In this document: positions 31,121 to 56,595 of the stretch, in pieces
How the letters are laid out: every line of letters begins with the position of its first letter
How positions within the stretch are numbered: the stretch's first letter is position 1
Source: Desulfobacterales bacterium
Lineage (GTDB): Bacteria; Desulfobacterota; Desulfobacteria; Desulfobacterales; JALSRD01
Reading direction: 5' to 3'
NCBI GenBank assembly: GCA_026984935.1
Contig: JALSRD010000055.1
Location: 1 to 56,884 of the forward strand
Length of the DNA: 56,884 bases
Position numbers and translations under genes: made by a program
Notes under the pieces: generated by a model
The model's database searches: none
Told to the model about the DNA's origin: nothing
Seen by the model: the letters and a program-made list of their open reading frames with translations, nothing else

Positions 31121-31253
31121 CTTGTGTTTTGCTCCCTGTTGAGTCGTTCTCCCGATGCGGGCCGCATGCCATTAAGGCTTTCCAAGTTCCGGCGGTACTG
31201 TTCGTCCGCATAGGCCCCTTTTGGCTGCAGCACCTGCGAAAGCCCCCGCGGCT

Positions 31254-32036: not shown

Positions 32037-32090
32037 ATTCCCCCCTTTTTGTGCGTCGGCCGGATTGCCAGCCGTTTTTTTCAAATCCGA

Positions 32091-35142: not shown

Positions 35143-35853
35143 ATGGACAACCACCTGAAAATTCGGCCGCTTAAAACCGATGGCATACCGACGCAGATCA
35201 AGGATCGCCTGTTGGTCGAGCGCCGGCGGCGCCAGATTGTAGATGCCGCCGTGCAGCTTTTTGTCAAACAGGGGTTCCACAAAACCACCACGCGCCAGAT
35301 CGCCCGTGCGGCCGGCTTTTCCATCGGGTCACTCTATGAATACATCGCCTCAAAGGAAGATGTCCTCTACCTGGTTTGCGAATTCATTCATGCCGAAGTG
35401 GAGCGCGGCGTCACCGAAGCCTTAAAACGCACCGGCGGCACCCACAACGCCCTGGCCGAAGTCATCCGCGCCTACTTTCTGGTCTGCAACCGCATGAGTG
35501 ATTTCATCCTGCTGATCTACCAGGAAACCCAGTGCCTGCCGGAACAGTGGAAGAAAAAGGTGCTGGAAAACGAACTGCGCATCACCGGGCTCTTCGTTGA
35601 AGTGCTGGCACGCCTGTCGTCCGAAGGCCATCTGCCGGAAATGGACGACCGCGCACTGGAACTGGCGGCCCACAACATCTCCGTTCTGGGGCACATGTGG
35701 ACCTTCCGGCGCTGGTTCTTCAGCCGGCATTACGCCATCGAGGATTATATCCGGCTGCAGACCGATTTTATCTTAAGAACCGTGTGCGTGAAACCGGAAA
35801 AGACCGTCAAAAGGGCGTCGAACATCGAACGCCCGACATCGGGCCTTGAATGA
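35143..35853 (+). CDS. TetR-family regulator of acyl-CoA metabolism
   Basis: A 236-aa repressor-type protein. The TetR N-terminal HTH spans about residues 25-75 ([45 protein letters not shown]); the rest is an alpha-helical ligand domain like those binding acyl-CoA. It lies 55 nt before icmF and the open frame of icmF could even start inside its end, so they are probably one operon. The operator upstream and the copy at the acyl-CoA dehydrogenase suggest that it represses both until an acyl-CoA binds (inference). Confidence 0.88.
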
Positions 35854-35908
35854 GAAAAGGGAAAAGCCGCTTTATTTTATACTGACCATGACTGACGGGG
35901 GGAAGAGT

Positions 35909-38900
35909 ATGGGGGTTGAAAGCGAAATCTACAAGCCCAAGCATCACATTCGGGTCGTCACCGCCACATCGCTTTTTGACGGCCATGACGCGGCGATCAA
36001 TATCATGCGCAGGATCCTGCAGGACACGGGCGTCGAAGTGATTCACATGGGGCACAACCGCTCCGTTTCGGAAATCGTGGATGCCGCCATTGAAGAAGAC
36101 GCCCAGGGCATCGCCGTTTCGAGCTACCAGGGCGGCCACATGGAATTCTTCAAATACATGATCGACCTGCTGCAGGAAAAGGACGCCGCCCATATCCGTG
36201 TTTTCGGCGGCGGCGGGGGCGTGATCGTGCCGGCCGAAATCAAGGAGCTGGAGGCCTACGGTGTCGCCAAAATATACTCCCCCGAGGACGGCGCGAAAAT
36301 GGGCCTGCAGGGGATGATCAACGACCTGGTCAGGAGCGTCGATTTTGCGGTGGTTGCCGAAGATGCCGAATTCGACCTGGCCGATCTTTCGCCGCAGAAC
36401 AAAAACCTGGTTGCGCGCCTGATTTCCGCCGTGGAAAACGCAGCCGGCAACGGCCGGCTGGCAGCCCTGCGAACCCGCCTGAAAGAAAAAGTCACGGACC
36501 ATTCCACGCCGGTAGTCGGCATCACCGGCACCGGCGGCGCCGGAAAATCCTCTCTGACCGACGAACTGATCCTGCGCATGCTGCATGACATCCAAGACAT
36601 CCGCATTGCGGTGATCTGCTGCGACCCCTCACGCCGCAAGACCGGCGGCGCGCTGCTGGGCGACCGCATCCGCATGAACGCCATCGGCAACCCGCGGGTC
36701 TACATGCGTTCGCTGGCCACGCGCAGGTCGCAGAGCGAAGTCCCCGAAACCCTGGCGGATGCCATCAACGTCACCAAAGCCGCCGGGTTCGACCTGGTCA
36801 TCGCCGAAACCGCCGGCATCGGGCAGGGGGACTCCCGCATCGTCGACCTGGCCGATGTCTCCATCTATGTCATGACCAGTGAGTTCGGCGCCGCATCCCA
36901 GCTCGAAAAAATCGACATGCTCGACTACGCCGACCTGATGGTGGTCAACAAGTTCGAAAAGCGCGGCAGTGAAGACGCGGTCCGGGACGTGCGCAAGCAG
37001 GTGCAGCGCAACCGCAAAGCCTGGGACCTTGCGCCGGACGAAATGCCTGTTTTCGGCACGATCGCCTCGAAATTTCACGATGACGGGGTCAACGCCCTGT
37101 ACCATGCGATTTTCGACCTGGTGGCCGATAAAAGCGGCCGGCGTTTTGCCACCACCCTGCCCCGGCCGAGCAGCCGGACATCCTCTTCCAAGACCATTAT
37201 CATTCCGCCGGAACGTACCCGTTACCTGGCCGAAATCAATGACACCCTGAAGGCCTACCATCGGCAAACCGCCGCGCAGGCCGAAATCCTGCGCAACGCC
37301 TGGCACTTTGAGCAAAGTGCCGGAATGCTGGCGGACGGGGAAGACGACGACCGCCGGGCGCTCATCGACCGGCTGGCCCGCGAGGTCGAGCGTTGCCGCC
37401 GGAAGCTCGACCCACAGACGCTGCAGGTGCTGGACGAGTGGGAGGAGATCAAGGCCGCCTACGCCGGCGACGAACTGGTTTACAGCGTCAGGGGGCGTGA
37501 AATCCGGGTGCCGCTATACAGCGAATCGCTGGCCCACCAGAAAATCCCCAAGATCGTGCTGCCCAAGTTCGAAGACCCGGCCGAAATCTACCGCTGGATG
37601 CGCCAGGAAAATGTCCCCGGCCACTTCCCTTATACCGCCGGCGTTTTCCCTTTGAAACGGGTGGATGAAGCGCCCACGCGCATGTTCGCCGGCGAGGGCG
37701 ACCCGGCGCGCACCAACCGGCGCTTCAAGCTGCTTTCGGCAAATTCCGCGGCCAAGCGCTTGTCCACGGCTTTCGACTCGGTCACGCTCTACGGATACGA
37801 CCCCGAACGCCGCCCGGACATCTACGGCAAGGTGGGCACCTCCGGCGTCAGCGTCTGCACGCTGGATGACGTCAAGGTGCTCTACAGCGGTTTCGACCTG
37901 TGCGATCCGCACACTTCCGTATCCATGACCATCAACGGGCCGGCGCCCATCATGCTGGCCATGTTCTTAAACTGCGCCGTAGACCAGCAGGTGGAGCGCT
38001 TCCGGGCCGAAAACGGCAAGTATCCGGACAACGAGCAGTACGCCCAGATCCGCGAGCGCACACTGACCACTGTACGCGGCACGGTGCAGGCCGATATTCT
38101 CAAGGAGGACCAGGGCCAGAACACCTGCATTTTCTCCATCGAATTCGCCTTAAAGATGATGGGCGACATCCAGCAGTATTTCATCGACCACAACGTGCGC
38201 AACTTTTACTCGGTTTCCATCTCCGGCTACCACATCGCCGAAGCCGGTGCAAACCCCATCACCCAGCTGGCCCTGACGCTGTCCAACGGCTTTACCTATG
38301 TGGAGTACTACCTCTCGCGCGGGATGCCCATCGACAGTTTTGCGCCCAATCTCTCGTTTTTCTTCTCGAACGGTATGGACCCCGAGTACACGGTCATCGG
38401 ACGCGTGGCCCGGCGCATCTGGTCCGTGGCCATGCGCGAAAAGTACGGTGCATCGCGCCGGTCCCAGATGCTCAAGTACCACGTCCAGACCTCTGGGCGC
38501 TCCCTGCACAGCCAGGATATCCAGTTCAACGACATCCGCACCACCCTGCAGGCCCTGTGCGCCATCTACGACAACTGCAACAGCCTGCACACCAACGCCT
38601 TCGACGAGGCCATCACCACGCCGAGCAACGAATCGGTGCGCCGGGCGCTGGCCATCCAGATGATCATCAACCGCGAATGGGGGCTGACCAAGAATGAAAA
38701 TCCCTATCAGGGCAGCTTTATCGTGGAAGAGCTGACCCGCCTGGTGGAAGAGGCCGTGCTGATGGAGTTCGACCGCATCACCGCCCGCGGCGGTGTGCTG
38801 GGCGCCATGGAAACCGGGTACCAGCGCAGCAAGATCCAGGAAGAGTCCATCTACTATGAAACCCTCAAGGCCAACGGCCGGCTGCCATTGATCGGCGTCA

Positions 38901-39181
38901 ACACCTTCCGCGACCCGGATGCCGACGACAGTGAACTGTCCGAGGAGATCGAACTGGCACGAGCCACCGAGGAGGAAAAAGAGTCCCAGTTAAAGCGCCT
39001 GGCTGATTTCCAGAAACGCCACGCCGAAGCCGCGCCCCAGGCCTTAAAACGTCTGCAGCAGGTCGCCCTGTCCGGCGAAAACATCTTCGCCGAACTGATG
39101 GAAACCGTCAAGGTCTGCAGCCTGGGCCAGATTACGCGCGCCCTCTACGATGTCGGCGGGCAGTACCGGCGGGGCATGTAG
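35909..39181 (+). CDS. icmF: Fused isobutyryl-CoA mutase (IcmF)
   Basis: IcmF interconverts isobutyryl-CoA and butyryl-CoA with adenosylcobalamin, with a built-in G-protein chaperone. The 1090-aa product has an N-terminal B12-binding domain (about residues 12-145; lower-ligand DGHDAA with His26, SSYQGGH, FGGGGG), a MeaB-like GTPase (P-loop GTGGAGKSS at 207-215) and the mutase TIM barrel in the C-terminal half ([37 protein letters not shown]). The order B12-GTPase-mutase defines IcmF and differs from methylmalonyl-CoA mutase. ATG 35909 has GGGGGG 6 nt upstream. Related specificities (pivalyl-CoA) cannot be excluded. Confidence 0.93.
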
Positions 39182-40404: not shown

Positions 40405-40454
40405 CCTTTAGCCTTCAACCCGTACACAAAACGAAATTGCGAAAGGAGAGCAAA

Positions 40455-41977: not shown

Positions 41978-43132
41978 ATGCTTTTCAAACTGACCGATGA
42001 ACAACTGATGATCCAGGCCATGGTCAGGGAATTCTCCCATAAAGTCGTGGCCCCCGGCGCCAGGGAGCGTGACCGCACCAAAGAGTTCCCCGGTGACATC
42101 CTGAAGCAGATGGGGGAACTCGGGCTGCTCGGCATGATGATTCCGGACAAGTACGGCGGCGAGGGTGCCGACACCATCAGCTACGTGCTGGCCCTTTCCG
42201 AAATTGCCTACGGCTGCGCCGCGACGGCCGTGGTCATGTCCGTCCACAATTCCATCGTGTGCGAGAGTATCCTGCGCTTCGGCAGCGAAGAGCAGAAGCA
42301 ACGCTTCCTGCCGCGCATGGCCTCCGGTGAAATCATCGGCTCCTTCGGCCTTACCGAACCCGATGCCGGCTCCGACCCCGTACGGCAGGTCACCGCCGCG
42401 GTGCGCGACGGCGGCCATTACATTTTAAACGGGACCAAACGCTTTACGACCACCGGCAAAAACAGCGGCCTGACGATCGTGACCGCCAAAACCGACGAAA
42501 GCCTGCGACACAAAGGCATCAGCGCTTTTATCGTGGAAAAGGGAACTCCGGGCTTCATCGTGGGTCACGAAGAAGACAAAATGGGCCTGCGGGCTTCGGA
42601 CACCACCGACCTGATTTTCGAAAACTGCCGGGTACCGGCGGCGAACCTGCTGGGCAACGAAGGCGACGGATTCAAGATCGCCATGACGGCGCTGGACGGC
42701 GGCCGCATCGGTATCGCCGCCCAGTCCGTGGGCGTGGCCCGGGCGGCCTTCGACGCCGCCGTCAAATACGCCAAGAAAAGGGAACAGTTCGGGCAGAAGA
42801 TATCGAAATTCCAGGGACTGCGCTGGATCATCGCCGACATGGCCACCGAAATCGAGGCTGCCACGCAGCTGATGCTCTCGGCAGCCGCCATGAAAGACCG
42901 CGGGGAAAAGTTCACCGCGCAGGCTTCCATGGCCAAACTCTTTGCCTCCGAAATGGTCAACCGCGTCACGGCCAGGGCCATTCAGATGCACGGCGGATAC
43001 GGCTTCACCAAAGACTACGACGTGGAGCGCTTCTACCGCGATGCGCGCGTCTTTACCATCTACGAGGGCACTTCCGAAATCCAGCGCATCGTCATCTCCA
43101 ACCACATCCTGAAGGACAAACGCAAGCCCTGA
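41978..43132 (+). CDS. Acyl-CoA dehydrogenase (second paralogue)
   Basis: A 384-aa short-chain acyl-CoA dehydrogenase. It has FGLTEPDAGSDP, YILNGTKRFTTTGK, DGGRIGIAAQSVG and the C-terminal YEGTSEIQRIVIS with the catalytic Glu. It is closest by motif to butyryl-CoA-type enzymes and could take the butyryl-CoA made by IcmF. GAAAGG is 8 nt upstream of the ATG; it lies 30 nt after the XRE-cupin gene. No etfAB genes are in the window. Confidence 0.94.
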   Translation: MLFKLTDEQLMIQAMVREFSHKVVAPGARERDRTKEFPGDILKQMGELGLLGMMIPDKYGGEGADTISYVLALSEIAYGCAATAVVMSVHNSIVCESILRFGSEEQKQRFLPRMASGEIIGSFGLTEPDAGSDPVRQVTAAVRDGGHYILNGTKRFTTTGKNSGLTIVTAKTDESLRHKGISAFIVEKGTPGFIVGHEEDKMGLRASDTTDLIFENCRVPAANLLGNEGDGFKIAMTALDGGRIGIAAQSVGVARAAFDAAVKYAKKREQFGQKISKFQGLRWIIADMATEIEAATQLMLSAAAMKDRGEKFTAQASMAKLFASEMVNRVTARAIQMHGGYGFTKDYDVERFYRDARVFTIYEGTSEIQRIVISNHILKDKRKP

Positions 43133-44086: not shown

Positions 44087-44569
44087 CTATTTGCTGAAAA
44101 TCTTGCTGGCCAGCTCGATGTCTTCCGGACAGAAAACGAACAGGCAGGTATCGTCCGCTGATGAGACCGAGCCGTAAACGTAGTTGATGTTGACACCTTC
44201 CTCGCCGAACTTGGCGGCGATTTTGGCCATCTCCCCCGGCCGGTTTTCAAGCCGAAGCGCAATCACCGGCATGATGTCAAAGATGTAGTCGTTCTGCGAC
44301 AGCAGGTCGATGGCCTTGTCGGTCTGATCCACCAGGATACGAATCAGGGCAAAATCGGCCGAGTCCTTGCGCATGGAGTTGTAGCTGGCCACCGAAGCGA
44401 TGCGCTTCAGCGACTTGCCCCTGGCCTGGAACAACTGCCTGACATACGCCGAGGCGTCCTGGATCGTGAGGGCATCGATATTGATGCCCTCTGCAGACAG
44501 CAGCGTGGTAAATTTTCCCAGCTCGCCGGGAACGTTCGGCATAAACAGCGATATTTCGGTTCTGACCAT
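44087..44569 (-). CDS. Tandem ACT-domain protein
   Basis: A 160-aa protein made of two ACT domains. The first (about residues 4-70) begins ISLFMPNVPGELGKFTTLL; the second (about 98-160) has LRLENRPGEMAKIAAKF. ACT pairs bind amino acids and act as regulators. GGGGGAG lies 10 nt upstream of the ATG. The liv operon stops upstream at a terminator, so this gene probably has its own promoter, but amino-acid sensing would fit a branched-chain importer. Confidence 0.88.
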   Translation of the reverse strand: MVRTEISLFMPNVPGELGKFTTLLSAEGINIDALTIQDASAYVRQLFQARGKSLKRIASVASYNSMRKDSADFALIRILVDQTDKAIDLLSQNDYIFDIMPVIALRLENRPGEMAKIAAKFGEEGVNINYVYGSVSSADDTCLFVFCPEDIELASKIFSK

Positions 44570-44713
44570 TTTGATTTCTCCCCCTTGTTAAAAAAAACCG
44601 GGATCCGCAGGCACGGTTACCTACAGCCGGCTGCGCGCCGCCGGAACCACCCGGCATTTATCCTACGGGATCGCGGACCGCCGGTCAAGCGCCGCGTCAC
44701 GCCGACGGCGGCG

Positions 44714-44753
44714 GAAAAAAAAGCCGTGCCCGCCGATTCTCGCGGCAGGCACG
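44714..44753 (-). terminator. Rho-independent terminator of the liv operon
   Basis: On the minus strand a stem (CGTGCCTGCCGC against GGCGGGCACGGC, 44753-44723) with a 5-6 nt loop is followed by eight T residues. It is 85 nt downstream of the LEA lipoprotein stop and directed against that transcript. Confidence 0.88.
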
Positions 44754-44837
44754 ACCTCTTCTCGTCAATTCCGGAACGCTGCTGACGGCACATCCACACA
44801 AAAAAATGCGCCCCGCGGTGTTGGAAAGTTTTCCGGC

Positions 44838-45452
44838 CTATTCCGGGAATTTGGCCTTGAAGGTCACCACTTTGTCCAGGCCGTCCGCCTTGAAAACAGC
44901 CGACCCCTCCTTAACGAAAATGGGGAAACCGAATTCAGGCGCCTTTTTCCACCAAGTGGCCAGCTGTTTCAACGCCGCTCCCGGTCCGGCCTTGCCGGTT
45001 TTGGCCTTGAGTTTAAAGCCGCCGGTGACCAGCAGGCTGAGCAGCGACTGGCGGCCGTCGAACATGGCATGTACACGGATCTGGTTGGTCTTGCCCGCCG
45101 GTATCCATTGGGTTTCGGTGGAGCTGACCGTATTTAAGTCAAAATTCTCGAAGGCCACCGTAAATTTCAGCTCTTCCATCTTCACCGGGTAAGAGTTCGG
45201 ATTTTTGACGTTGAAGATAAACGCCAGATCCAGCGGCGCACCGTAGTTTCCGGCGGTGCCCACGGTGGGCTTGACTTTTTTGGAGAAATACCACCAACCC
45301 CAGTAATGGGCCACTTCCACTGAATCGAGGCTGACTGTCGGCGCTTTGAAATTTTGCTGAGTCGGTTTTGTCATCATGCCGGCACACCCTGAAAGCAGGG
45401 CAACTGCCGCCGCAACGGCCAAACAGGTCAACAGCTTTGACGTTTTGTGCAT
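44838..45452 (-). CDS. LEA type 2 / WHy-domain lipoprotein
   Basis: A 204-aa predicted lipoprotein. The signal ends in the lipobox LLSGC (about residues 19-23). A WHy-type beta domain (about 40-150; PLDLAFIFNVKNPNSYPVKM and AFENFDLNTV) resembles bacterial LEA14-like proteins associated with desiccation or membrane stress. I start at ATG 45452, with GGGAGG 6 nt upstream; an upstream in-frame reading to 45530 would overlap livF. It is the last gene before the operon terminator, so it is probably co-expressed with the importer. Confidence 0.86.
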   Translation of the reverse strand: MHKTSKLLTCLAVAAAVALLSGCAGMMTKPTQQNFKAPTVSLDSVEVAHYWGWWYFSKKVKPTVGTAGNYGAPLDLAFIFNVKNPNSYPVKMEELKFTVAFENFDLNTVSSTETQWIPAGKTNQIRVHAMFDGRQSLLSLLVTGGFKLKAKTGKAGPGAALKQLATWWKKAPEFGFPIFVKEGSAVFKADGLDKVVTFKAKFPE

Positions 45453-45517
45453 CTTTTCCTCCCCTCTGCAATTATGCGGCACACAGCGGTTGTTGCCGGG
45501 ACATCGCCGGCGCAACC

Positions 45518-46330
45518 TCACGTGAGCCATCTTTTTCGGCGCTTGTAATGTTTGACGTCCCTGAAGCTCTTGCGGCCGCCAAAATCAGTCATCCCCAGGT
45601 AAAAATCCTTGATGTCCGGATTTTCACGAAGCTTGTCGGCGCTGTCGTCCATGACAATACGGCCGTTTTCCATGACATAGGCATGCGGGGCCACATTCAG
45701 CGCCAGCTTGGCGTTCTGTTCCACCAGCAGCATGGAGATTTTCTCTTCCCGGTTGAGCCGGGTGATAATGTTGAAAATTTCCTGGATCAGCAGCGGCGCC
45801 AGTCCCATGGAGGGCTCATCCAGCAGGATCAGTTTGGGGCTGGTCATCAGGGCACGGCCCACCACGGTCATCTGCTGTTCCCCGCCGCTGATAAAGCCCG
45901 CCGTCTCGTGGCGTTTCTGTTTCAGGCGCGGAAAGTAGTGGTAGACCATCTCGAGCCCGTCCTTGAGTGAACGGCCGTACTTGCGCATGTGGGCGCCGAC
46001 CTTGAGGTTCTGCTCGACGGTCAGGTGTTCGAACACCCGGCGCCCCTCGATGACCTGCACAATACCCATTTTGGCGATTTTCTCGGGGGCCATGCGGTCG
46101 ATGCGCTGGCCCATGAACTCGATGGAGCCGTCGGTAACCTGCCCGTCTTCGTGTTTCAGCAGTCCGGACACGGCTTTCAGTGTCGTGCTCTTGCCGGCGC
46201 CGTTGGCACCCAGCAGGGCCACGATACCGCCATCGGGGACCTCGATGGAAACCCCCTTGATCACCAGGATGACCTCGTGGTATTTTACTTCGATGTTGTT
46301 GATTTTCAAGATCGGTTCTGACGTCGCCAA
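45518..46330 (-). CDS. livF: Branched-chain-type ABC importer ATPase LivF
   Basis: A 270-aa ATPase of the HAAT family. Walker A is GANGAGKSTT (about residues 40-49), the signature is ISGGEQQM (about 150-157) and Walker B is LILLDEPSMGLAP. The basic extension after FYLGM (about 248-270) is longer than in the Enterobacteria. It hydrolyses ATP for uptake with LivG, LivH, LivM and the binding protein next to it. Confidence 0.92.
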   Translation of the reverse strand: MATSEPILKINNIEVKYHEVILVIKGVSIEVPDGGIVALLGANGAGKSTTLKAVSGLLKHEDGQVTDGSIEFMGQRIDRMAPEKIAKMGIVQVIEGRRVFEHLTVEQNLKVGAHMRKYGRSLKDGLEMVYHYFPRLKQKRHETAGFISGGEQQMTVVGRALMTSPKLILLDEPSMGLAPLLIQEIFNIITRLNREEKISMLLVEQNAKLALNVAPHAYVMENGRIVMDDSADKLRENPDIKDFYLGMTDFGGRKSFRDVKHYKRRKRWLT

Positions 46331-46361
46331 GCTTTAGACCTCCTTTGGGGGTTGGAATCGC

Positions 46362-47609
46362 TTACCACCCCAGCCACGCGCCGGCCCACTTCTTGGGCCA
46401 GCGAGCCTGCAGGTCAACGACCTCGACAATCTTGAACTTCCCGTTGGCCACTTCGTAAATGGGCACTTTCCCGGAAATGCGGTGATCCGTGGCCGTATAG
46501 GTCACCGGCGCACCCCCCAGGCCGAGATCAAATTTGCGCATGGTCTCGAACCCCTTTTTCAGAATGTTTTCTCCGCTCAGCCCGCCGGCCTTATCGGCGC
46601 GTTTGAGCGCCTCCCACAACACCAGTGTATTGGCCCAGGCCTGGATGGTATGCACCGACCGTTTCGCGGCCGGAATACCGGGATTGTATTTTTTGCCGTA
46701 GGCCAGCACTTTGGCCATGAGGGGGGTTTTCTCGCCGTAGAAGGCGCAGACCCCGACGCCCATGGCGCCCTCGCTGGCCTTGCCGGCCAGGCGCGGCAGG
46801 TTCTCGTCAAACCCCCAGTTGTCGATGATATGATCCGCCTTCAGACCCAGTGAATAGGCGTCGCGCAGCGTGGCCGCCACGGACATCACCGTGTTGCCGT
46901 GCCAGACCACATCCGGCTTGAACTTCTTCATGGCCAGCACCTGGCTTTTGGTATCGATGGCAAACAGTGACACATCCTGATCCGGTCCGATATCGAAACC
47001 CAGCAGTTTGGCCTGGTCCTTGATGGCTTTGATGGGTGCGCTGGAATAAGGCGAAGCGAACATATAGGCACACTGGAAACGTGGTTTACGCTTGCCGTAA
47101 GCCGGATTCTTGGGCCACTTCTTGTCAAACCAGGCCGTCAGGGCTGCACGTGCATTGGAGGAATAGTCCGTGGCCGCAAAGAGGTTGTAAGGCGTCTTTT
47201 TGGGATTCGTCAGGTGCGCGGAATAGGAAGCCGAGACATAGGGCATCTTTTCCTTGGTCACCGTGGGGGAAAGCGCCTCGGTATCACCGGTGCCCCACCC
47301 CAGAACCGATACGCATTTCAAGCGCTTGAAGAGCTTGTACTTGGTCAGCGCTTCGGGAATCCGGTAGCCGTAATCGAACTGGTAGAGCTTAATGGGTTTG
47401 CCGTTGATCCCGCCGTTGTCATTGGCGTAGTGAATGGCTTCGGCGATGCCCAGCGCATAATCCTTGCCCACGTCGGAAGTCGCTCCGGTCATGTCGTTGA
47501 GGGCCCCGATCTTGACACTGGCGGCGCCCGCCACACCGGCAAGCCCGGCGGCCAAAAGCACTGCCGAAACCAACAGAAACAGCTTAAACCACAAATTCTT
47601 GCTTCGCAT
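46362..47609 (-). CDS. livJ: Branched-chain-type periplasmic substrate-binding protein
   Basis: A 415-aa periplasmic ligand-binding protein of the Leu/Ile/Val family. The signal peptide (about residues 1-29) ends AGA|A. The mature part begins SVKIGALNDMTGATSDVG, typical for Peripla_BP_6. I start at ATG 47609 with GGGGGGAG 4 nt upstream. It lies between LivM and LivF. Since the operon also contains an acyl-CoA synthetase, the ligand may be a branched carboxylate or aromatic acid rather than an amino acid (inference). Confidence 0.88.
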   Translation of the reverse strand: MRSKNLWFKLFLLVSAVLLAAGLAGVAGAASVKIGALNDMTGATSDVGKDYALGIAEAIHYANDNGGINGKPIKLYQFDYGYRIPEALTKYKLFKRLKCVSVLGWGTGDTEALSPTVTKEKMPYVSASYSAHLTNPKKTPYNLFAATDYSSNARAALTAWFDKKWPKNPAYGKRKPRFQCAYMFASPYSSAPIKAIKDQAKLLGFDIGPDQDVSLFAIDTKSQVLAMKKFKPDVVWHGNTVMSVAATLRDAYSLGLKADHIIDNWGFDENLPRLAGKASEGAMGVGVCAFYGEKTPLMAKVLAYGKKYNPGIPAAKRSVHTIQAWANTLVLWEALKRADKAGGLSGENILKKGFETMRKFDLGLGGAPVTYTATDHRISGKVPIYEVANGKFKIVEVVDLQARWPKKWAGAWLGW

Positions 47610-47937
47610 AATCTCCCCCCTTTTCTCGCCGCAGGTTGAAGGCTCTGAGGCCTGCATAAAAGAAACATGGAACAAAATGTTGTTGCGTCCGGCTGATGAA
47701 GCCAAAAAACCGCAGCACCACCGGGAATCCGCACGTTTTCGCAATGCTGCCGGGCATATGAACGGGTGCCTGAATGCCCATGCTATTTTAAAACGCCCCT
47801 TACCGCTCTTGCCGGATATCGAATGCGCATCACCTCCTCACGTGCGCCGGGTACGCAAGTTCAATGCACTTGCCGGTAGAAACCACAAGTTAGTCCGTTT
47901 TCAGGCACAAGCGCTCCTGCAGGCCCCACCCGCCCGG
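47610..47937. other. Intergenic leader before the binding-protein gene
   Basis: About 328 nt on the minus-strand transcript between LivM and the binding-protein gene. It contains a minus-strand AGGAGGTGATG at about 47827-47840 that would open only a 15-codon frame, and GC-rich inverted segments nearby. It may hold an internal promoter or RNA structure giving extra binding protein, as is common for such operons. I see nothing decisive. Confidence 0.4.
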
Positions 47938-49038
47938 CTAGTAGGAAAAGGGCCACAGGTTGAAGTAGTTTTTCATCTGCCACCAGCGGTAGGCCAGGCC
48001 GTTGGGTTCGAAAATCATGAAAGCGCAGATGGCCAGGCCAAAGGTGCCCTCCTTGATAAAGAGAAAGTCCATCAACAATTTCGGATAGATGTCGGCGAGT
48101 GGCAGGATCGCCAGTTGCAACGCCTCGATCACCACCACCATGAAAATGGATCCGAAAATGGTGCCGTGGATGGATCCCACGCCGCCGATCAGGATGACAC
48201 CCACCAGCCACAGCGACCAGAACCAGGGAAAGTGCTCGGGGCTGATGGCCGCCAGGTTGCTGATCCAGAAAGCGCCGGCGATGCCGCCGATAAAGCCGGC
48301 CACGAAAAAGGCCAGCAGCTTGTACTTAACCACGTTGATCCCCATCACTTCGGCGGAAATGTCGTTGTCCCGGATGGCGACCCAGGCCCGGCCGACCTTG
48401 GAACGCAGCAGGTTGGCCAGCACGGCAACCGCAAGGATAACCAGCACGATCATCATGAAATAGACTTTCAGGTCGCTGTCGATGACCCAGGGGCCGACGC
48501 GGATGGTGCCCGGCGGCAGCGAAAAGGCCTGCCCGCGGCCGCCGATCTGGCTGACATACTGGGTCAGGATAAAATCAACGGTAATGAATTGGGCGGCCAT
48601 GGTGGTCAGAATCAGGTAAAAACCCTTGACCCTGGCCGACGGCAGGCCGAAAAGGACGCTCCAGACCCCGGCCACGAAAGCCGCCGCAATGATGCTGATG
48701 GGGTAGGCCAGGCCCCAGTGGACCAGCACGGCGGGCCACGGGAACTCCAGCACTAGTAGTGTGCTGGTGTATGCGCCCACCGCCAGAAAAGCGGCATGCC
48801 CCAGCGTGATCTGGCCACAGTACCCGATCAGCAGCTGCACCCCCAGCGCACCCAGGATGGTGTAGCCGATCTGGTTGCAGATGCTGAGGCCGTACGAGTC
48901 CGCAAACAGCGGGATAACCACGAAAAGGATAACGAACAGGAGAATCATTTTCCCCTTGATAAAACGCGTCTGCCACCAGCTGTGGTCTTCAGCATAGCTC
49001 TGGTGATACTGTCCGCAGGGAAGCCAGGTGGTTGACAT
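47938..49038 (-). CDS. livM: Branched-chain-type ABC importer permease LivM
   Basis: A 366-aa polytopic permease with about 8-10 hydrophobic segments. The EAA-like region and family landmarks are CGQITLGHAAFLAVGAY (about residues 73-90), GRAWVAIRDNDISAEVMGIN (about 218-237) and GGVGSIHGTIFGS (about 289-301). The N-terminal 28 residues are soluble and Trp/His-rich, unusual for the family. It lies 65 nt downstream of LivH. Confidence 0.92.
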   Translation of the reverse strand: MSTTWLPCGQYHQSYAEDHSWWQTRFIKGKMILLFVILFVVIPLFADSYGLSICNQIGYTILGALGVQLLIGYCGQITLGHAAFLAVGAYTSTLLVLEFPWPAVLVHWGLAYPISIIAAAFVAGVWSVLFGLPSARVKGFYLILTTMAAQFITVDFILTQYVSQIGGRGQAFSLPPGTIRVGPWVIDSDLKVYFMMIVLVILAVAVLANLLRSKVGRAWVAIRDNDISAEVMGINVVKYKLLAFFVAGFIGGIAGAFWISNLAAISPEHFPWFWSLWLVGVILIGGVGSIHGTIFGSIFMVVVIEALQLAILPLADIYPKLLMDFLFIKEGTFGLAICAFMIFEPNGLAYRWWQMKNYFNLWPFSY

Positions 49039-49103
49039 ACAGTAACTCCGCCTTTCAGTTCATTGTGCTGATTGAAAAGTCGACTGCCGGCCGCATCCGC
49101 CGA

Positions 49104-49988
49104 TTACACGCGCTCAATCCGTTCCCAGCCCCACAGCCCGTATGGCTTGAAGAGCAGGAAAACCGCCATGAACACAAACGGCGCAATCTGCTTGACGCCG
49201 CCGGGGAAAAAGCGGTCCAGATAGGCACCGCACAGATTCTGCAAGATACCGATGATGATGCCGCCGACGATGGCACCCGGTACGGAGTTGAGTCCACCGA
49301 GCACCACGGCGGGCAGCACCAAAAGCCCCAGGTAGCCCACCGAAATATTCAGTCCGTTGATATTGCCCAGCAGTGTGCCGCCGACGCCGGCCGCCATGAA
49401 GGCAATGGCCCAGGCGATGGCATAGACGAAACGCGCGCTGACCCCCAGAGAGAGCGCGGCCATCTCATCATCGGCCGTGGCCTGCATGGCCAGTCCCCAG
49501 CGCGTATACTTGAAAAAGGAGACAAAGATGACCAGCAGGACAATTGCAGCCACGAAGCTCCACAGATACACCCGCCCGATCACCAGCGGTCCCAGATGGA
49601 TCGGTTCCAGCGCGAAAACGGGCGGCTTGAAAACCCGCGTGTCCGTGCCCCAGATAAATTCCACACAGCCCTTGAAGAAAAAAGACAGACCCACGGTCAC
49701 CATGATGACCGTCAGCACGGGCTCGCCGATCAGGCGGTCCAAGAATATCCTTTCGGTCAGCACGCCCAGGATAAAGCCGATGATCAAAGAGAAGAGCAGC
49801 GCCAGCAGAAACGGAATCCCCATGGAGTAAAAACTCAGACAGACATAGGCCCCGATGAGAGTCATCTCCCCCATGGCCAGATTCAGCACGCCCGAGCACT
49901 TGTAAATCAGCACCCAGCCCAGCGCCACCAGTGCATAGATGCCGCCTACCATCACACCCGTTGTCAGGGTTTCCAGAAACAGGTCCAT
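49104..49988 (-). CDS. livH: Branched-chain-type ABC importer permease LivH
   Basis: A 294-aa polytopic permease. The landmarks are GVMVGGIYALVALGWVLIYKCSGVLNLAMGEM in its N-terminal 45 residues (shown in part: GGIYALVALGWVLIY), MAALSLGVSARFVYAIAWAI (about 155-175) and GGLNSVPGAIVGGIIIGI (about 231-248). With LivM it forms the transmembrane channel. A 119-nt gap separates it from the upstream synthetase gene. Confidence 0.93.
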   Translation of the reverse strand: MDLFLETLTTGVMVGGIYALVALGWVLIYKCSGVLNLAMGEMTLIGAYVCLSFYSMGIPFLLALLFSLIIGFILGVLTERIFLDRLIGEPVLTVIMVTVGLSFFFKGCVEFIWGTDTRVFKPPVFALEPIHLGPLVIGRVYLWSFVAAIVLLVIFVSFFKYTRWGLAMQATADDEMAALSLGVSARFVYAIAWAIAFMAAGVGGTLLGNINGLNISVGYLGLLVLPAVVLGGLNSVPGAIVGGIIIGILQNLCGAYLDRFFPGGVKQIAPFVFMAVFLLFKPYGLWGWERIERV

Positions 49989-50107
49989 ATGCCAACTCCC
50001 CGGGTATTATCGTATTTCATGCAGCCGCCATTTCTAAGCGGCCATCAGCCGCGAACCGGCCGTAGCAAACACGCACGCCGTTGTCGGGTTCCATGCCTGC
50101 GTATCGA

Positions 50108-52048
50108 TCAGTCCACCACTTTGCGGATGCAAAGGTCGGTGTTGATCTTCGACACCCGCCCGTCTTCGTATGTAATCGTCGTGTCGATGTGAACGGTATC
50201 CACGTCCGCGTACAGCGCATCCAGAATCTCCTTGTAGCGCTTTTCCACAAAGGCACGGCGCAGCTTGCGGGTGCGCGTCAGTTCATCGTCATCCGGGTCG
50301 AGTTCCTTGTACAGGTTGGTAAACTTGTGCACCCGCGCCGCCTCGGGCAGGTCCTCGTTGGCCTTGCGGATCTGGGTTTCCACCAGGTCATAGACTTCCG
50401 CCATCTGCGACAGTTCCGGATAACCGGTGTAGTTGAGTTTCTTCTCGTCGGCCCACTTGCCCACCACAGCATAGTCGATGCACATCACGGCCGTGATATA
50501 GGGCTTCTGGTGGCCGATCACCCAGGCATCCTTGATGTATGGGCTGAACTTCAGGCGTGTTTCCAGGTACTGGGGTGAAAAGAGGCTGCCGTCGTTTAAG
50601 GTGAACACGTCCTTGGTGCGGTCGAACACCACCAGGTGCCCGTCATCGTCGATGAAGCCCTTGTCGTCGGAATGCAGCCAGCCGTCCCTGAGGGCCTTTT
50701 TGGTGGCCTCCGGGTTTTTGTAGTAGCCCAGGAAAACCGAAGAGCTGCGGGTGATGATTTCACCCTCGGCGGTGATTTTGATCTCGGTCCCGGGAATGGG
50801 CTTTCCCACCGTGTCGAACTTGATGTCCCCGCTGCGGTGCACGACCGATATGCCGGCCACTTCGGTTTGGCCGTAGATCTGTTTCAGGTTGACACCCATG
50901 GAGTGAAAAAACCGGAAATGATCCGGCCCCATGGCGGCCCCACCGGTATAGGCATTGCGCACACGCGAGAGCCCCAAGTGGTCCTTGAGCTTTTTCTGAA
51001 CACTGATATAGGCCAGCCACTCCAGCAACTTCCAGTGCCAGGGGACTTTCTGCTTGGCGAATTTCATGTCCGCCACGCGGTATCCGACGGCGTGTGAAAA
51101 TTCGTAGAACTTGCGTTTGATCCAGGTGGCGTCCAGGTACTTGACCTGCACCGAGCGGGTCATCTGTTCGTACATGCGCGGCGGCGCGAACATCACGTGC
51201 GGCCCGATTTCGCGGATGTTCTCCTGGGCGGTTTCGGGTTCCTCGGGAAAGTTGATGGTGTAGCCCACCTGCAGGCCGCAGGATATGGACATCATCTGCT
51301 CGCCGATCCAGGCAAAGGGGAGGTAGGAAACGTAGTCGTCGCTGCTTTCGCACGGATCGACGTCCATGAGGTGCTTGCCCATGGTGAGCATGTTGTTGTG
51401 GGACAACAGCGCGCCCTTGGGCAACGAAGTGGTGCCCGAGGTGTAAAAGAGCAGCGCGACTTCATCACCGTGTCCCTTTTGCACCAGTTCTTCAAAAAGG
51501 TGCGGCTGACGTTTGTCCAGATCCCGCCCAAGGTCCTGGAGCTCCCGGAGGCTGATCAGGCAGTCCTGGTGGTAGTTGCGCATGCCTTTGGGATCGTCCC
51601 AGATAATTTTTTCCAGCTTGGGGCACTCATCGAAGATGGATAGGGCCTTGTCCACTTCCTCCTGCCCCTCGCCGAACAGGAAGCGGGTATCCGAGTGATC
51701 CACGATATAGCGCACCTCTTCGATGAGGCAGTCCTGGAACAGCCACACACCGACACCACCGGCACACAGGGCGGCCATCTCCGCCCACAGCCCTTCCGGG
51801 CGGTTGTCGCCGATCATGGAGACCTTGTCCCCATCCTTCAGGCCCAGCGAGACGAGCCCCAGGGCGATGTATTTGACATTCTCGAAATAATCATGCCAAC
51901 TGATCGGGCGCCAGATGCCGAATTCCTTTTCACGCATGGCCACCCGGCTTTCCCCGTACTGTACGGCCTTCTGATAGAAGAGTTTGGGAATGGTCAGATC
52001 TTCGGTGACTTCGAAACGGTTTGAGCCGCGGCTATCCACGTGTTGCAT
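50108..52048 (-). CDS. AMP-binding acyl-CoA synthetase (FadD/long-chain type)
   Basis: A 646-aa adenylate-forming ligase that activates a carboxylate with ATP and CoA. Key motifs are YTSGTTSLPKGALLSHNN (P-loop, about residues 206-223), IYGQTEVAG (about 389-397), GWLHSDDKGFIDDDG and the FDRTKDVFTLNDG hinge (about 480-492). It overlaps livG by 17 nt and lies inside the importer operon, so transport and activation of the same acid are likely coupled. Similar long proteins serve long-chain, branched or aromatic acids; the substrate is unknown. Confidence 0.92.
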   Translation of the reverse strand: MQHVDSRGSNRFEVTEDLTIPKLFYQKAVQYGESRVAMREKEFGIWRPISWHDYFENVKYIALGLVSLGLKDGDKVSMIGDNRPEGLWAEMAALCAGGVGVWLFQDCLIEEVRYIVDHSDTRFLFGEGQEEVDKALSIFDECPKLEKIIWDDPKGMRNYHQDCLISLRELQDLGRDLDKRQPHLFEELVQKGHGDEVALLFYTSGTTSLPKGALLSHNNMLTMGKHLMDVDPCESSDDYVSYLPFAWIGEQMMSISCGLQVGYTINFPEEPETAQENIREIGPHVMFAPPRMYEQMTRSVQVKYLDATWIKRKFYEFSHAVGYRVADMKFAKQKVPWHWKLLEWLAYISVQKKLKDHLGLSRVRNAYTGGAAMGPDHFRFFHSMGVNLKQIYGQTEVAGISVVHRSGDIKFDTVGKPIPGTEIKITAEGEIITRSSSVFLGYYKNPEATKKALRDGWLHSDDKGFIDDDGHLVVFDRTKDVFTLNDGSLFSPQYLETRLKFSPYIKDAWVIGHQKPYITAVMCIDYAVVGKWADEKKLNYTGYPELSQMAEVYDLVETQIRKANEDLPEAARVHKFTNLYKELDPDDDELTRTRKLRRAFVEKRYKEILDALYADVDTVHIDTTITYEDGRVSKINTDLCIRKVVD

Positions 52049-52853
52049 ACAGTTCCTCTTCCCCCAGATACGCCTTGATCACCTCAGGGTTGTTCTGAAC
52101 TTCCTCAGGGGTGCCGTCCATGATCATGTTGCCGAAATTGAGCACAAAGATCCGGTCGGACAGGTCCATCACCACCCCCATGTCGTGCTCCACCAGCAGA
52201 CAGGTTACCCTCCAGCGCTCTTCTTCATTGATGTCGAGGATAAAGCGCGCCATATCTTCAACCTCCTCGAGGTTCAGGCCTGCCAGCGGCTCGTCGAGAA
52301 TCAGCAGGTCCGGCTCCAGCGCCAGTGCGCGTCCCAGCTCCACCCGCTTCTGCAGACCGTAAGGGAGCATGCCCACCGGTTTGTTGCGGATCTGTTCAAT
52401 CTCCAGCAGGTCGATGATCTCCTCTTCGATAAACTGGCGGTGCTCGATCTCCTCGCGCTTGGTCTTGCCCATATACCAGGCGCCACTGAGAACGCCCGAT
52501 TTGAAATGCACATGCCGCCCCAGGCGGATGTTGTCCAGAACGGTCATGCCCCCGAACACTTCAACCTTCTGGAACGTCCGCGCCATGCCCAGGCCGGCCC
52601 GCTGATAGGGCCGGAGGTGGTTGATGCGCTGCCCCTTGAAAAACACATCACCCTTCTGCGGCCGGTAAAGGCCGTTGATGCAGTTCATCATCACGGTCTT
52701 GCCGGCGCCGTTGGGCCCGATGACCGAGTGGATTTCACCCTTTCTGATCTTCAGGGAAACACCGGCCAGGGCGTTGACCTTGCCAAAACGCATGTCGATA
52801 TCTTTTAATTCCAGAAGCACTTCGGCTTCGCTCTGTTCACCGGAAAGGGCCAC
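52032..52853 (-). CDS. livG: Branched-chain-type ABC importer ATPase LivG
   Basis: A 273-aa ATPase of the HAAT family and first gene of the operon. Walker A is GPNGAGKTV (about residues 43-51), the LivG-type signature is YGLQKRVELGRALAL, Walker B is LLILDEPLAGLN and the H-loop is LVEHDMGVV. The start is GTG 52853 with AAGGAGAG about 10 nt upstream. A candidate promoter lies 110-135 nt upstream. Confidence 0.92.
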   Translation of the reverse strand: MALSGEQSEAEVLLELKDIDMRFGKVNALAGVSLKIRKGEIHSVIGPNGAGKTVMMNCINGLYRPQKGDVFFKGQRINHLRPYQRAGLGMARTFQKVEVFGGMTVLDNIRLGRHVHFKSGVLSGAWYMGKTKREEIEHRQFIEEEIIDLLEIEQIRNKPVGMLPYGLQKRVELGRALALEPDLLILDEPLAGLNLEEVEDMARFILDINEEERWRVTCLLVEHDMGVVMDLSDRIFVLNFGNMIMDGTPEEVQNNPEVIKAYLGEEELYATRG

Positions 52854-53482: not shown

Positions 53483-53770
53483 ATGGCAAAGGCGGAACAT
53501 GGCCGCAGCGTGCAGGCAACCATCGTCAACCCACTGGGCCTGCACGCCCGGTCGGCGGCCAAAATCGCACAAATCGCCCGGCAGGCAAAGGGCAAAGTGC
53601 GTGTTGAGTGCAATAGATCGCAGGTCGACGCCAAGGACATGCTCGACCTGCTCACCATCGCCTGCCCCAGGGGCACCACCATCACCGTGAAAATCGATGA
53701 CCTCCGGGATACCGAAATTTTAGAGGCCCTTGTCGAGCTCATCGGCAGTGGGTTTGGAGAGACTTTCTAA
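53483..53770 (+). CDS. ptsH: Phosphocarrier protein HPr
   Basis: A 95-aa HPr with the phosphorylated His21 in NPLGLHARSA. The place of the regulatory Ser46 of other HPr proteins (usually KS in the VxxKS motif) is Asp52 in VDAKDMLDLL, so HPr-kinase control by Ser phosphorylation is not possible at this site. The stop codon nearly touches the enzyme I start (1 nt). No EII sugar permease lies nearby. Confidence 0.92.
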   Translation: MAKAEHGRSVQATIVNPLGLHARSAAKIAQIARQAKGKVRVECNRSQVDAKDMLDLLTIACPRGTTITVKIDDLRDTEILEALVELIGSGFGETF

Positions 53771-53771
53771 C

Positions 53772-55541
53772 ATGGCAGAGCAAACTACAGGCGAAAAGGT
53801 CCTGCGCGGAATCGGCGCTTCCCCGGGCATTTGCATCGGCAAGGCCTACCTGGTGGACACCGAGGGCGTGGATATCGTCGGCAAGTTTTTCATCCCCAAG
53901 GAAAACCTGGAAAAAGAGGTCAAACGGTTCAAGCGTGCCGTTCAGCATGTCATCGACGAAATGGAAACGATCATTGCCGAACGCCCGACCGAGTTGAAAG
54001 ACAAGGCCGAAATCCTGGAAGCGCACTCGCAGCTGTTAAAAGACAAACGACTCTATGACAAAACCATCGCGACCATTGAAAGCGAGGCCATCAATGCCGA
54101 GTGGGCGCTGAACAAAGTCACCACGGCCTTGAGGCGCATGTTCAAGAACATGAACGACGACTATCTGCGGGCCCGTGCCGATGACATCGCCCAGGTTTCA
54201 GAGCGCATTTTGCGAAGACTGGCGGGCGCCGAAACGGTGAATATCGCCACCATCGACAAGCGCGTGGTGCTCGTGGCCCACGACCTTTCGCCGGCCGAGA
54301 CCAGCCAGATTCACCTCGAGCGTATCAAGGGGTTTATCACGGACCGCGGCGGACGGGCCTCGCACACCAGCATCATTGCCCGCACCCTGGAGATTCCGGC
54401 CGTGACCGGCCTGGGAAACGCATCCAAAATCATCCGCCAAGACGACCTGCTGATCGTCGACGGCAACACGGGCACGGTGATCGTTCAGCCATCGGAACAA
54501 ACCCTGATGGAATTTGAAGAAAAAAAGATGGGCTACGAGCGTTACCGATCGGCGATTACAAAGTACTGCCACCTGCCGGCACGTACGAAAGACGGCCATG
54601 AACTCAAAATCATGGGCAACATCGAACTCCCGGAAGAAGTTGTGCCGGTAATCGACAACGGCGGCGACGGCATCGGTCTTTACCGTACCGAATTTCAATA
54701 CATGGCCAAGGGCCGCTTCCCCACCGAAGAAGAGCTCTTCGACCGCTACCGGGATGTCGTCGAGGTCATGCACCCCAGACCGGTGACCTTCCGCACCCTC
54801 GACATCAACGGCGACAAAACCGTCCGGCAAATCGTCGAGAGCGGCGAACCCAACCCGGCCCTGGGGCTGCGCGCCATTCGCTACTGCCTGAAAAACCCGT
54901 CGGTGTTTCAACCCCAGCTGCGCGCCATCCTGCGGGCGTCCGCGTTCGGAAACGTGCGCATCCTGCTGCCCATGATTTCATCCTGCCAGGAAATCCTGCA
55001 GGCCAGGGCAGCCATAAAAGAAGCGGTTGACGCCTTGCAAGCCGAAGGCATCCGCTCGGCGGACAATGTCGAAATAGGCATCATGATCGAAGTGCCGGCG
55101 GCGGTCGTGATGGCGGATGTCATGGCCAAGATGGTGGATTTTTTCAGCATCGGGACCAACGACCTGATCCAGTATACCCTGGCCATCGACCGCGACAACA
55201 AGGACGTGGCCCACCTCTATCACCCGCTGCAGCCGGCGATTCTGCGCATGCTCAAACGCACGGCCGAGGCTGCCAAGGACAACGGCATCAAGGTGTTCAT
55301 GTGCGGTGAAATGGCCGGCAACCCGCTGCACGCACCGATCCTGCTGGGCCTTGGCCTGGATGAACTCAGCATGAACCCGCAGTCGATTCCGGCGGTGAAA
55401 AACATGATCCGCTCGCTGGATACCCACGATGCCGAAAACGTGCTTGACGAGGTTTTGCAGCACACCTCGGTCGAAGCTGCCCTGAAACTCCTGCGGCAAC
55501 GATACGGTGACCTCGTCGCCGCCATGCTCTACGATCAATAG
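53772..55541 (+). CDS. ptsI: Phosphoenolpyruvate-protein phosphotransferase (enzyme I)
   Basis: Enzyme I moves the phosphate of PEP to HPr. The 589-aa product is full length: N-terminal HPr-binding and swivelling His domain (phospho-His in GGRASHTSIIAR, about residue 198), a linker, and the C-terminal PEP-binding barrel (GGDGIGLYRTEF, VRILLPMISS, IGTNDLIQYTLAIDRDN, FMCGEMAGNP with the catalytic Cys). ATG 53772 follows ptsH by one nucleotide, and smpB follows 42 nt later. Coupling with HPr suggests a regulatory PTS in an organism that probably does not use sugars. Confidence 0.96.
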   Translation: MAEQTTGEKVLRGIGASPGICIGKAYLVDTEGVDIVGKFFIPKENLEKEVKRFKRAVQHVIDEMETIIAERPTELKDKAEILEAHSQLLKDKRLYDKTIATIESEAINAEWALNKVTTALRRMFKNMNDDYLRARADDIAQVSERILRRLAGAETVNIATIDKRVVLVAHDLSPAETSQIHLERIKGFITDRGGRASHTSIIARTLEIPAVTGLGNASKIIRQDDLLIVDGNTGTVIVQPSEQTLMEFEEKKMGYERYRSAITKYCHLPARTKDGHELKIMGNIELPEEVVPVIDNGGDGIGLYRTEFQYMAKGRFPTEEELFDRYRDVVEVMHPRPVTFRTLDINGDKTVRQIVESGEPNPALGLRAIRYCLKNPSVFQPQLRAILRASAFGNVRILLPMISSCQEILQARAAIKEAVDALQAEGIRSADNVEIGIMIEVPAAVVMADVMAKMVDFFSIGTNDLIQYTLAIDRDNKDVAHLYHPLQPAILRMLKRTAEAAKDNGIKVFMCGEMAGNPLHAPILLGLGLDELSMNPQSIPAVKNMIRSLDTHDAENVLDEVLQHTSVEAALKLLRQRYGDLVAAMLYDQ

Positions 55542-55583
55542 CCAATCCCAAACCAGCCGCGACCCGGCCGGAAAGCGCTAAAG

Positions 55584-56054
55584 ATGGAACCAGCTGCACC
55601 GAAAATCGTCGCCCAGAACCGCAAGGCACGGCACAACTATTTCATCGAGGACACAATTGAGGCCGGAATCGTGCTGCTGGGCACCGAGGTCAAATCGCTG
55701 CGCCTGGGCCGCGTCAACCTGAAGGACGCTTACGCCCAGATACGCAACGGCGAGGTCTTCGTGCACCAGATGCACATCGGGCCGTACCCTTTCGCCTATT
55801 ACGGCAACCACGACCCGCTGCGGCCGCGAAAGCTGCTTTTGCACAGGCGCGAAATCGACAAGCTGTACGGCAAGGTCAACGAAAAAGGCTTTTCACTGAT
55901 CCCGCTGCAGGTCTACTTCAAAGGCAGCCATGTCAAAATAAGCCTTGCCATTGCCCGCGGCAAACGCAAGTACGACAAACGTGAATCCATCCGCCGCCGT
56001 GACGAACAGCGCGAATTGCAGCGCACCCGCAAGCAGTACACCAGCCGATATTGA
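55584..56054 (+). CDS. smpB: SsrA-binding protein SmpB
   Basis: This 156-aa protein binds tmRNA and brings it to stalled ribosomes. It shows the full family pattern: [26 protein letters not shown], the beta-barrel core with [20 protein letters not shown], and a basic C-terminal tail (about residues 125-156; [16 protein letters not shown]) that replaces mRNA in the decoding site. It lies 187 nt upstream of its RNA partner ssrA on the same strand. Confidence 0.98.
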
Positions 56055-56241: not shown

Positions 56242-56595
56242 GGGGGCGAAACGGCTTCGACGGGGATAGAGAAGCATGGGCTGCATGCCGAGCTTTCCTG
56301 CCTGCTCGTTAAACGGCGGGAGACTAAATATAATCGCAGACGATTATAACTACGCCCTGGCTGCTTAAGCCAGCGTCCTTCCAGGCTGCGCCTGCGGGCC
56401 TGGAAAGGGCGTCGATCAGCAGGATAGCCGCCGTCAAGGCCTGATGTGACGGCAGCGAAACATCTATCAGGATAAGCCCGAAGGGACCCGGCCCGAAGGG
56501 GCCCTTCACGGCTGACAACCAAATTTCGGGATAAGCATGTAGACGTCCGTGTGGAATATTTCCGGACGCGGGTTCGACTCCCGCCGCCTCCACCA
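56242..56595 (+). ncRNA. ssrA: Transfer-messenger RNA (tmRNA)
   Basis: tmRNA rescues stalled ribosomes and tags the unfinished protein. The 5' end GGGGGCGAAACGGCTTCGAC and the 3' end GGTTCGACTCCCGCCGCCTC + CACCA form the Ala-tRNA-like domain. GGGGGCG pairs with CGCCTCC with one G-U. CCA is encoded. The tag reading frame GCA GAC GAT TAT AAC TAC GCC CTG GCT GCT TAA runs at 56336-56368 and gives ADDYNYALAA, the expected ...ALAA degron. Several hairpins (pseudoknots) lie between 56369 and 56550. It is a one-piece tmRNA. Confidence 0.98.

Follow-up and report, generated by a model that had tools for sequence, protein, structure and literature searches.

A LEA-2/WHy-fold lipoprotein as a conserved part of a Liv-type importer operon with its own acyl-CoA synthetase in Desulfobacterota

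Contig JALSRD010000055.1 of a Desulfobacterales bacterium (assembly GCA_026984935.1) was analyzed over positions 1 to 56,884, a stretch of 56,884 nucleotides that is called the window below. On its minus strand, from 52853 to 44838, the window holds an operon for a branched-chain-type ATP-binding cassette (ABC) importer in the order livG, acyl-CoA synthetase (ACS), livH, livM, livK, livF, and LEA-2/WHy lipoprotein, with a terminator behind it. The LEA-2 lipoprotein is an integral, dedicated part of this importer operon. The importer is of a known type (HAAT), here with the conserved LEA-2 component as an added feature. Gene order, its conservation, the single origin of the lipoprotein gene, the LEA-2 fold, and a link to beta-oxidation genes in some families were computed. 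The seven genes may form an uptake-and-activation unit of Desulfobacterota-type bacteria for a carboxylic acid, probably a fatty acid, in which the LEA-2 protein helps in the periplasm; this is the reading that we favor tentatively.

Linkage was counted in an 80-locus set, the best 80 of 104 loci found by lipoprotein similarity, and in a phylum set of 395 genomes, in which the window's genome is G000; the loci of the two sets overlap in part, so the counts are not independent. The survey of the lipoprotein beside liv genes that the initial annotation had proposed placed it directly after livF, on the same strand, in 78/80 loci, with a median gap between matches of 33 nt; at the other two loci the contig extends just 150 and 387 bases upstream. 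A hitchhiking lipoprotein was considered and rejected because of this constant slot. The full order livG-ACS-livH-livM-livK-livF-LEA was found in 44 of the 48 loci of the set with enough room or a livG match, which agrees with the annotation's proposal that uptake and CoA activation form one unit. Two of the remaining four have one gene matched in two pieces, and two (L066 and L119) are without matches for the first genes; L066 reads livM-livK-livF-LEA, with no livG, ACS, or livH match despite 5.9 kb upstream. In a set of 40 genomes, made up of that of the window and 39 relatives, the lipoprotein was present in 12, and the 11 other loci have it directly after livF in 10 cases and at a contig end in the eleventh. 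The phylum set gave a lipoprotein match in 63/395 genomes, one each: 59 with livF adjacent, one cut by a contig end, and three weak (E ~1e-4). The weak matches (G102, G146, and G249) were not counted as orthologues, which leaves 60 carriers; the G250 match is a fragment at a contig end. No description of a LEA-2 protein with liv genes was found among the titles and abstract openings listed in a literature search, with most subscription journals outside its reach.

When the ACS was used as the query, 101/395 genomes matched at E ≤1e-200. Identities were ≥65% or ≤55%, with none between among the matches listed, and the set was split at 65%; the ACS orthologues of the window have 65-83% identity. 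The lipoprotein is carried by 57 of the 58 genomes with a ≥65% ACS, and the contig of the remaining one (G354) stops within livK. The Fisher p for this association is about 1e-60 (all 63 genomes, without kinship correction). An ACS tree was built from 58 proteins of 102 collected, namely 37 from carriers (the window's own and a random 36) and 21 others; L216 and L218 were excluded because of stops, and the LivK alignment omits L218 too. All 37 carriers and one other row form a 38-row clade that sits on a long branch and has 100/100 support. At least two changes are needed to account for lipoprotein presence on this tree, taken here to be a gain followed by a loss and hence a single origin.

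The lipoprotein gene encodes 204 aa (44838..45452, minus strand) and was assigned by the LEA_2 profile, the fold, and the position 3' of livF. The first ATG of the frame (45530) falls within livF; the start was placed at 45452, 65 nt past livF, on the basis of the orthologues and a strong GAGGGGAGG ribosome site. The protein carries a signal peptide; its lipobox is LSGC, followed by A at +2. A lipobox was found by rule in 119/137 orthologue rows (sets overlap), and three further rows pass by eye; the rest are ten with a signal peptide and no lipobox Cys, four ambiguous (LPC), and one non-orthologue. The anchor-less orthologues (L101, L108, L109, L162, L165, L168, L191, L192, L193, and L199) belong to several families, as if the lipid anchor had been lost repeatedly. 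No aspartate was seen after the lipobox Cys in the orthologues. By the Lol rule, a residue other than Asp at +2 directs a lipoprotein to the outer membrane, where the anchored LEA-2 protein is probably located, as judged from the sequence.

Pfam LEA_2 (PF03168) scores 21.1-21.5 bits on the window protein, below the cut-off of 25.4. Among 51 aligned orthologues, 48 match LEA_2 at E ≤0.01 (best 1.5e-6), two of five others scanned singly exceed the cut-off (25.7 and 27.5 bits), and two orthologues also match the TMEM106 model weakly (best E 0.0088). A phmmer search of PDB sequences with the lipoprotein gave nothing of note (best E 0.19). The AlphaFold model (pLDDT 87.8, pTM 0.77) was aligned by VIA-align with the luminal domain of TMEM106B (8B7D) at Z 11.6 (rmsd 3.1 over 130), plant LEA14 (1XO8) at Z 9.6 (rmsd 3.3 over 120), and AF_0446 (3BUT) at Z 8.9; Foldseek put 3BUT first and TMEM106B second. 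Many unrelated beta-sandwiches reach Z 8-9, so only TMEM106B stands clear and 1XO8 alone is not decisive. According to the model, the lipoprotein has a LEA14-like LEA-2 beta-sandwich fold, and together with the orthologue matches this bears out the LEA/WHy identity given in the initial annotation. The beta-sandwich is common to LEA14, AF_0446, TMEM106B, and the window protein at 8-12% identity; unlike the other three, the window protein is a bacterial lipoprotein that is exported, is helical over part of its length (residues 133-173), and has a fixed ABC-importer partner. Another LEA_2 protein (56.6 bits) is encoded elsewhere in the window's genome (L236:4092-4832, G000:C68), where its gene adjoins frames that by eye resemble a pyruvate dehydrogenase pair and a lipoate ligase.

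The LEA_2/WHy family takes its name from desiccation and stress, and on this background the lipoprotein could serve in envelope stress or protect the membrane in a general way, and be co-transcribed by chance. This is improbable, since all 59 non-weak phylum matches with readable upstream sequence sit directly after the importer livF, the gene was gained with the operon and kept except for one loss, both a LEA match and an ACS match at E ≤1e-200 are missing from the congener G001, and a different LEA_2 protein is present in the genome. A purely membrane-bound role is doubtful because at least ten orthologues seem to be without a lipid anchor. If the LEA-2 protein acts both anchored and free, a mere membrane anchor or membrane protector is unlikely. 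The role as a dock or membrane protector suggested in the initial annotation is made doubtful by the same ten rows and the four ambiguous ones.

The operon starts on the minus strand with a livG-type ATPase (52032..52853, GTG start; ABC_tran 97.6 bits and BCA_ABC_TP_C 47.4 bits), the first gene of the conserved order. It overlaps the AMP-forming ACS (50108..52048, minus strand, 646 aa; AMP-binding [PF00501] 209.5 bits and AMP-binding_C_3 [PF23562] 40.7 bits) by exactly the 17 nt first annotated (livG stop at 52032, ACS start at 52048). Next on this strand are the livH-type permease (49104..49988; BPD_transp_2 101.1 bits), the livM-type permease (47938..49038; BPD_transp_2 139.6 bits), the livK-type substrate-binding protein (SBP; 46362..47609, ATG start at 47609; Peripla_BP_6 155 bits), and the livF-type ATPase (45518..46330, TTG start; ABC_tran 86 bits), for which the best NCBIfam match, LivF at 213 bits, does not reach its cut-off of 441. 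Two ABC ATPases, two BPD_transp_2 permeases, and one Peripla_BP_6 protein in one cluster identify a HAAT-type ABC importer, and the Pfam AMP-binding and C-terminal domains identify the synthetase as an AMP-forming acyl-CoA synthetase. Among the best 25 of 98 NCBIfam matches of the ACS, no cut-off was reached (top FadD11 268.8, cut-off 950), and phmmer found no close solved structure (best 93.6 bits). The E. coli HAAT importers (livJ, livKHMGF) likewise have two ATPases, two permeases, and one type I binding protein. Unlike them, the window operon has an internal ACS, a terminal LEA-2 gene, the order G-ACS-H-M-K-F, and a binding protein that lacks LivJ Y202 and E226.

Free amino acids are not usual substrates of acyl-CoA synthetases. 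The ACS within the operon therefore points to a carboxylic acid as cargo. The acid is probably a fatty acid rather than Leu, Ile, or Val. The LivK model (pLDDT 88.5) is nearest by fold to 3EAF (Z 44.8), 3LKB (Z 43.3), and 4N03 (Z 40.9), with the next row at 37.8. The third of these, from T. curvata, is titled as a fatty acid SBP, 3LKB is titled with bound valine, and the sequence of 3EAF has the GWGT, SASYSA, and WGFDE stretches of the LivK family. R. palustris 4F8J and 4EVS and T. curvata 4N03 share the fold of LivK (Z 35.8-40.9) at only 15-21% identity; by their titles, the SBP family takes non-amino acids, and the likeness of the window LivK to them is one of fold. Y202 and E226 of E. coli LivJ, which we take to be ligand contacts, align with H in 29/29 LivK proteins and with a residue that is never E in the 29, respectively. 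An ordinary Leu/Ile/Val importer with an ACS unrelated to the cargo would fit the resemblance of LivK to valine-bound 3LKB. It is very improbable nonetheless, as the ACS holds the same slot in the 44/48 loci and in the two with a split match, overlaps livG in the window, and is accompanied by a LivK that does not keep the Y202/E226 pair.

In the favored fatty-acid reading, LivK would bind a monocarboxylic acid in the periplasm, LivHMGF would pump it into the cell, and the in-operon ACS would form the CoA thioester at once, trapping the acid for beta-oxidation. The exported, usually lipid-anchored LEA-2 protein would handle the hydrophobic acid in the periplasm and pass it to LivK. We infer the ligand, its chain length, the hand-over to LivK, and the contact between LEA-2 and LivK. 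PMC10340176, citing Levine, gives TMEM106B and two LEA-2 proteins of yeast as predicted lipid transfer proteins. Given the likely hydrophobic cargo and this predicted lipid transfer, the most economical role would be that of a carrier in the periplasm that loads LivK. That the LEA-2 protein is such a dedicated carrier, loading a fatty or hydrophobic acid onto the SBP of an ABC importer with its own ACS, is possible, though doubtful. FadL (PF03349) was found in 6/10 genomes examined, the window's genome included, and because of this partial presence it is no consistent outer-membrane partner.

Downstream of the operon, on the plus strand, the window has an acyl-CoA dehydrogenase (41978..43132; Acyl-CoA_dh_1 181.7 bits) that converges on it, a 3-hydroxybutyryl-CoA dehydrogenase (40359-41303) and a thiolase (39229-40404), both neighbors in part of the loci, and IcmF, a fused isobutyryl-CoA mutase/GTPase (35846..39181; NF045497 1927 bits, cut-off 1500). 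Four beta-oxidation kinds (thiolase, 3-hydroxybutyryl-CoA dehydrogenase, acyl-CoA dehydrogenase, and enoyl-CoA hydratase) were counted within 7.5 kb downstream. At least two kinds were found in 18/43 carrier loci of the phylum set (43 of 56 with ≥5 kb downstream), by family in f51 (10/10), f56 (5/5), f54 (1/1), f24 (1/1), and f92 (1/6, by paralogues of 36-40% identity). None of 14 other stretches with a Liv-type binding protein in the window's genome has at least two kinds, and none of the 20 stretches L214-L233, which have unequal room, has two kinds downstream. The beta-oxidation genes are co-directional with the operon in some families and converge on it together with IcmF in others. With these genes nearby, the acid would be headed for beta-oxidation, and this suits a fatty acid better than a branched or aromatic acid.

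The initial annotation had the operon feeding the IcmF and dehydrogenase genes. This neighborhood is real, and in several genomes IcmF and its group of thiolase, dehydrogenase, regulator, and acyl-CoA dehydrogenase genes adjoin the operon: at ≥60% identity, the acyl-CoA dehydrogenase is near the operon in 12/80 loci and IcmF in 6/80 (48 with ≥4.5 kb downstream). IcmF as a rule did not hold, since 44/60 carriers are without it. IcmF (E ≤1e-250) was found in 16/60 carriers and 43/335 non-carriers (Fisher p 0.0097, without kinship correction), and it lies within 20 kb of the lipoprotein on one contig in only 3/16 genomes (G000, G024, and G386). Its adjacency is a real local arrangement and not a requirement. 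PMC5017805 describes the isomerization of isobutyrate to butyrate before beta-oxidation in a syntroph, with mutase genes related to a sulfate-reducer group. An HMGL-like lyase and an enoyl-CoA hydratase (window 29954-32153, minus strand) adjoin the IcmF group, which suggests a branched acyl-CoA degradation island in this region.

A second ligase often follows the LEA gene on the same strand within 2 kb. It is a FadD-type synthetase in 41/63 loci of the 80-locus set with room and in 8/49 of the phylum set with room. The FadD-type and phenylacetate-ligase-type frames never occur together; the two ligases, which look non-homologous, seem to occupy one slot (e.g., L168, L169, and L172-L176 against L052, L057, and L064). 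Neither type is present between the LEA and ACT genes of the window, and the FadD-type copy of its genome is unlinked (L235:7349-8989, G000:C85; 62% identical over 503 aa). Because this second ligase is sometimes of the phenylacetate-ligase type, the cargo may instead be a branched or aromatic acid.

Several observations weigh against a fatty-acid unit with a LEA-2 carrier. The lipid transfer by LEA-2 proteins is itself a prediction. Ten to fourteen orthologues seem soluble, so an outer-membrane step is not general. Valine-bound 3LKB is also without Glu at the aligned E226 site, which weakens the argument from the LivJ residues and leaves valine-like ligands possible. The beta-oxidation linkage was found in 5/16 families (f92 by paralogues only) and was absent in 11, and the LEA-less loci L216 and L223 have, by eye, a hydratase upstream and a dehydrogenase downstream. 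The phenylacetate-ligase-type frame follows the LEA gene in 6/63 and 15/49 loci with room (80-locus and phylum sets). Finally, genome G025 (L237, G025:C126) has a complete importer and about 900 bases past livF with no LEA gene; having lost this gene and kept the importer, it indicates that the lipoprotein is not absolutely required. At L237, livF is followed by a convergent frame, peptidase-like by eye.

The ligase frames bear on the alternative, put forward in the initial annotation, of a branched-chain or aromatic acid importer, in which LEA-2 is a helper of some kind and the CoA ester enters IcmF or aryl-CoA pathways. Besides these frames, which also come after livF in 7/8 of the LEA-less operons described below, it can draw on the IcmF gene next to the operon here and elsewhere (the 6/80 loci) and on several R. 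palustris aromatic-acid SBPs among the structural neighbors of LivK. This alternative is nonetheless rather doubtful. Most carriers (44/60) have no IcmF, the aromatic SBPs come after 3EAF, 3LKB, and 4N03 in the structural ranking, and the single phenylacetate-ligase-type protein scanned falls far under the curated PaaK cut-offs (217.4 of 700 and 166.9 of 646.3). In addition, family f51 has the phenylacetate-ligase-type frame and the beta-oxidation genes together.

G025 matters also for the possibility that the LEA-2 protein is a structural partner, which serves LivK as a tether or as a bridge to a channel in the outer membrane and does not bind the substrate. The G025 LivK and LivM are 56% and 59% identical to those of the window, compared with 69-73% and 81-83% in L067 and L082, its nearest tree neighbors. 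The strict linkage to the importer and the usual lipobox with no D at +2 would also fit such a partner. Against it, ten orthologues seem to be without a lipid anchor, G025 is a single case, and LivK is equally divergent (50-57%) in several families that keep the LEA gene. A structural partner is rather unlikely, and among LEA-2 roles we infer the periplasmic carrier first and the structural partner of LivK second.

The LEA-less livG-ACS-livHMKF operons of the same phylum have a homologous ACS. None of the 19 loci with a 46-55% ACS (L215-L233) has a LEA frame by profile search, and the same livG-to-livF order was found, as far as readable, in 10/19. They differ from the window type in that no LEA protein was found in them; a phenylacetate-ligase-type frame lies downstream, as in part of the LEA-type loci. 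Among eight with frames examined, it was found after livF in seven (tblastn with the L216 frame, 48-65% identity). The proposal that this gene is confined to LEA-less operons was refuted by the loci in which it follows the LEA gene. G146 has a weak LEA-2-like frame (L183:5919-6590) directly after a livG-livF-ACS-livH-livM set of another subtype. Its LEA match has E 1.1e-4 (2e-8 with the 51-row profile), so a distant second case of the LEA/importer association may exist. G250:C247 and G272:C89 (L228 and L229) each have two ACS/liv sets of different subtypes within ~15 kb, with more synthetase-like frames between them.

The molecular job of LEA-2/WHy proteins is unsettled from plants to TMEM106B, and in this case one of them is linked to a single importer across a whole ACS clade. 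The linkage gives the LEA-2 protein a physiological partner and a simple assay. With the proposed unit, anaerobic Desulfobacterota would have a way to take up acids that is driven by an ABC importer and includes CoA activation. The carrier, if true, would complete an envelope-to-CoA route for such acids and provide a bacterial LEA-2 protein with a molecular role that can be tested; if it is wrong, the linkage still marks a distinct, recognizable importer subtype.

The lipoprotein gene is the last of the operon and a strong terminator stands behind it, both as first annotated. The intrinsic terminator (44715..44755, minus strand) was identified from RNA folding and sequence and has a 13-bp stem with two G-U pairs, read from 44755, a 7-nt loop, and T8. 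The 86 nt from 44690 to 44775 fold at -47.5 kcal/mol (z -4.1), and 0/200 shuffles were equally stable. A simple pattern scan for terminators did not list the hairpin at 44690-44775. The terminator after the lipoprotein gene is real and of textbook form. The next gene past it encodes an ACT-domain protein (44087..44569, minus strand; ACT 52.7 bits, two stretches), which in many relatives lies, by synteny, downstream of the LEA gene and the second synthetase. On the other side of the operon, frames at 53483-56054 (plus strand) are HPr-, PtsI-, and SmpB-like by eye and precede a tmRNA gene with the tag ADDYNYALAA (56242-56595, plus strand). An HPr frame is divergent and upstream of the operon in 15/80 loci.

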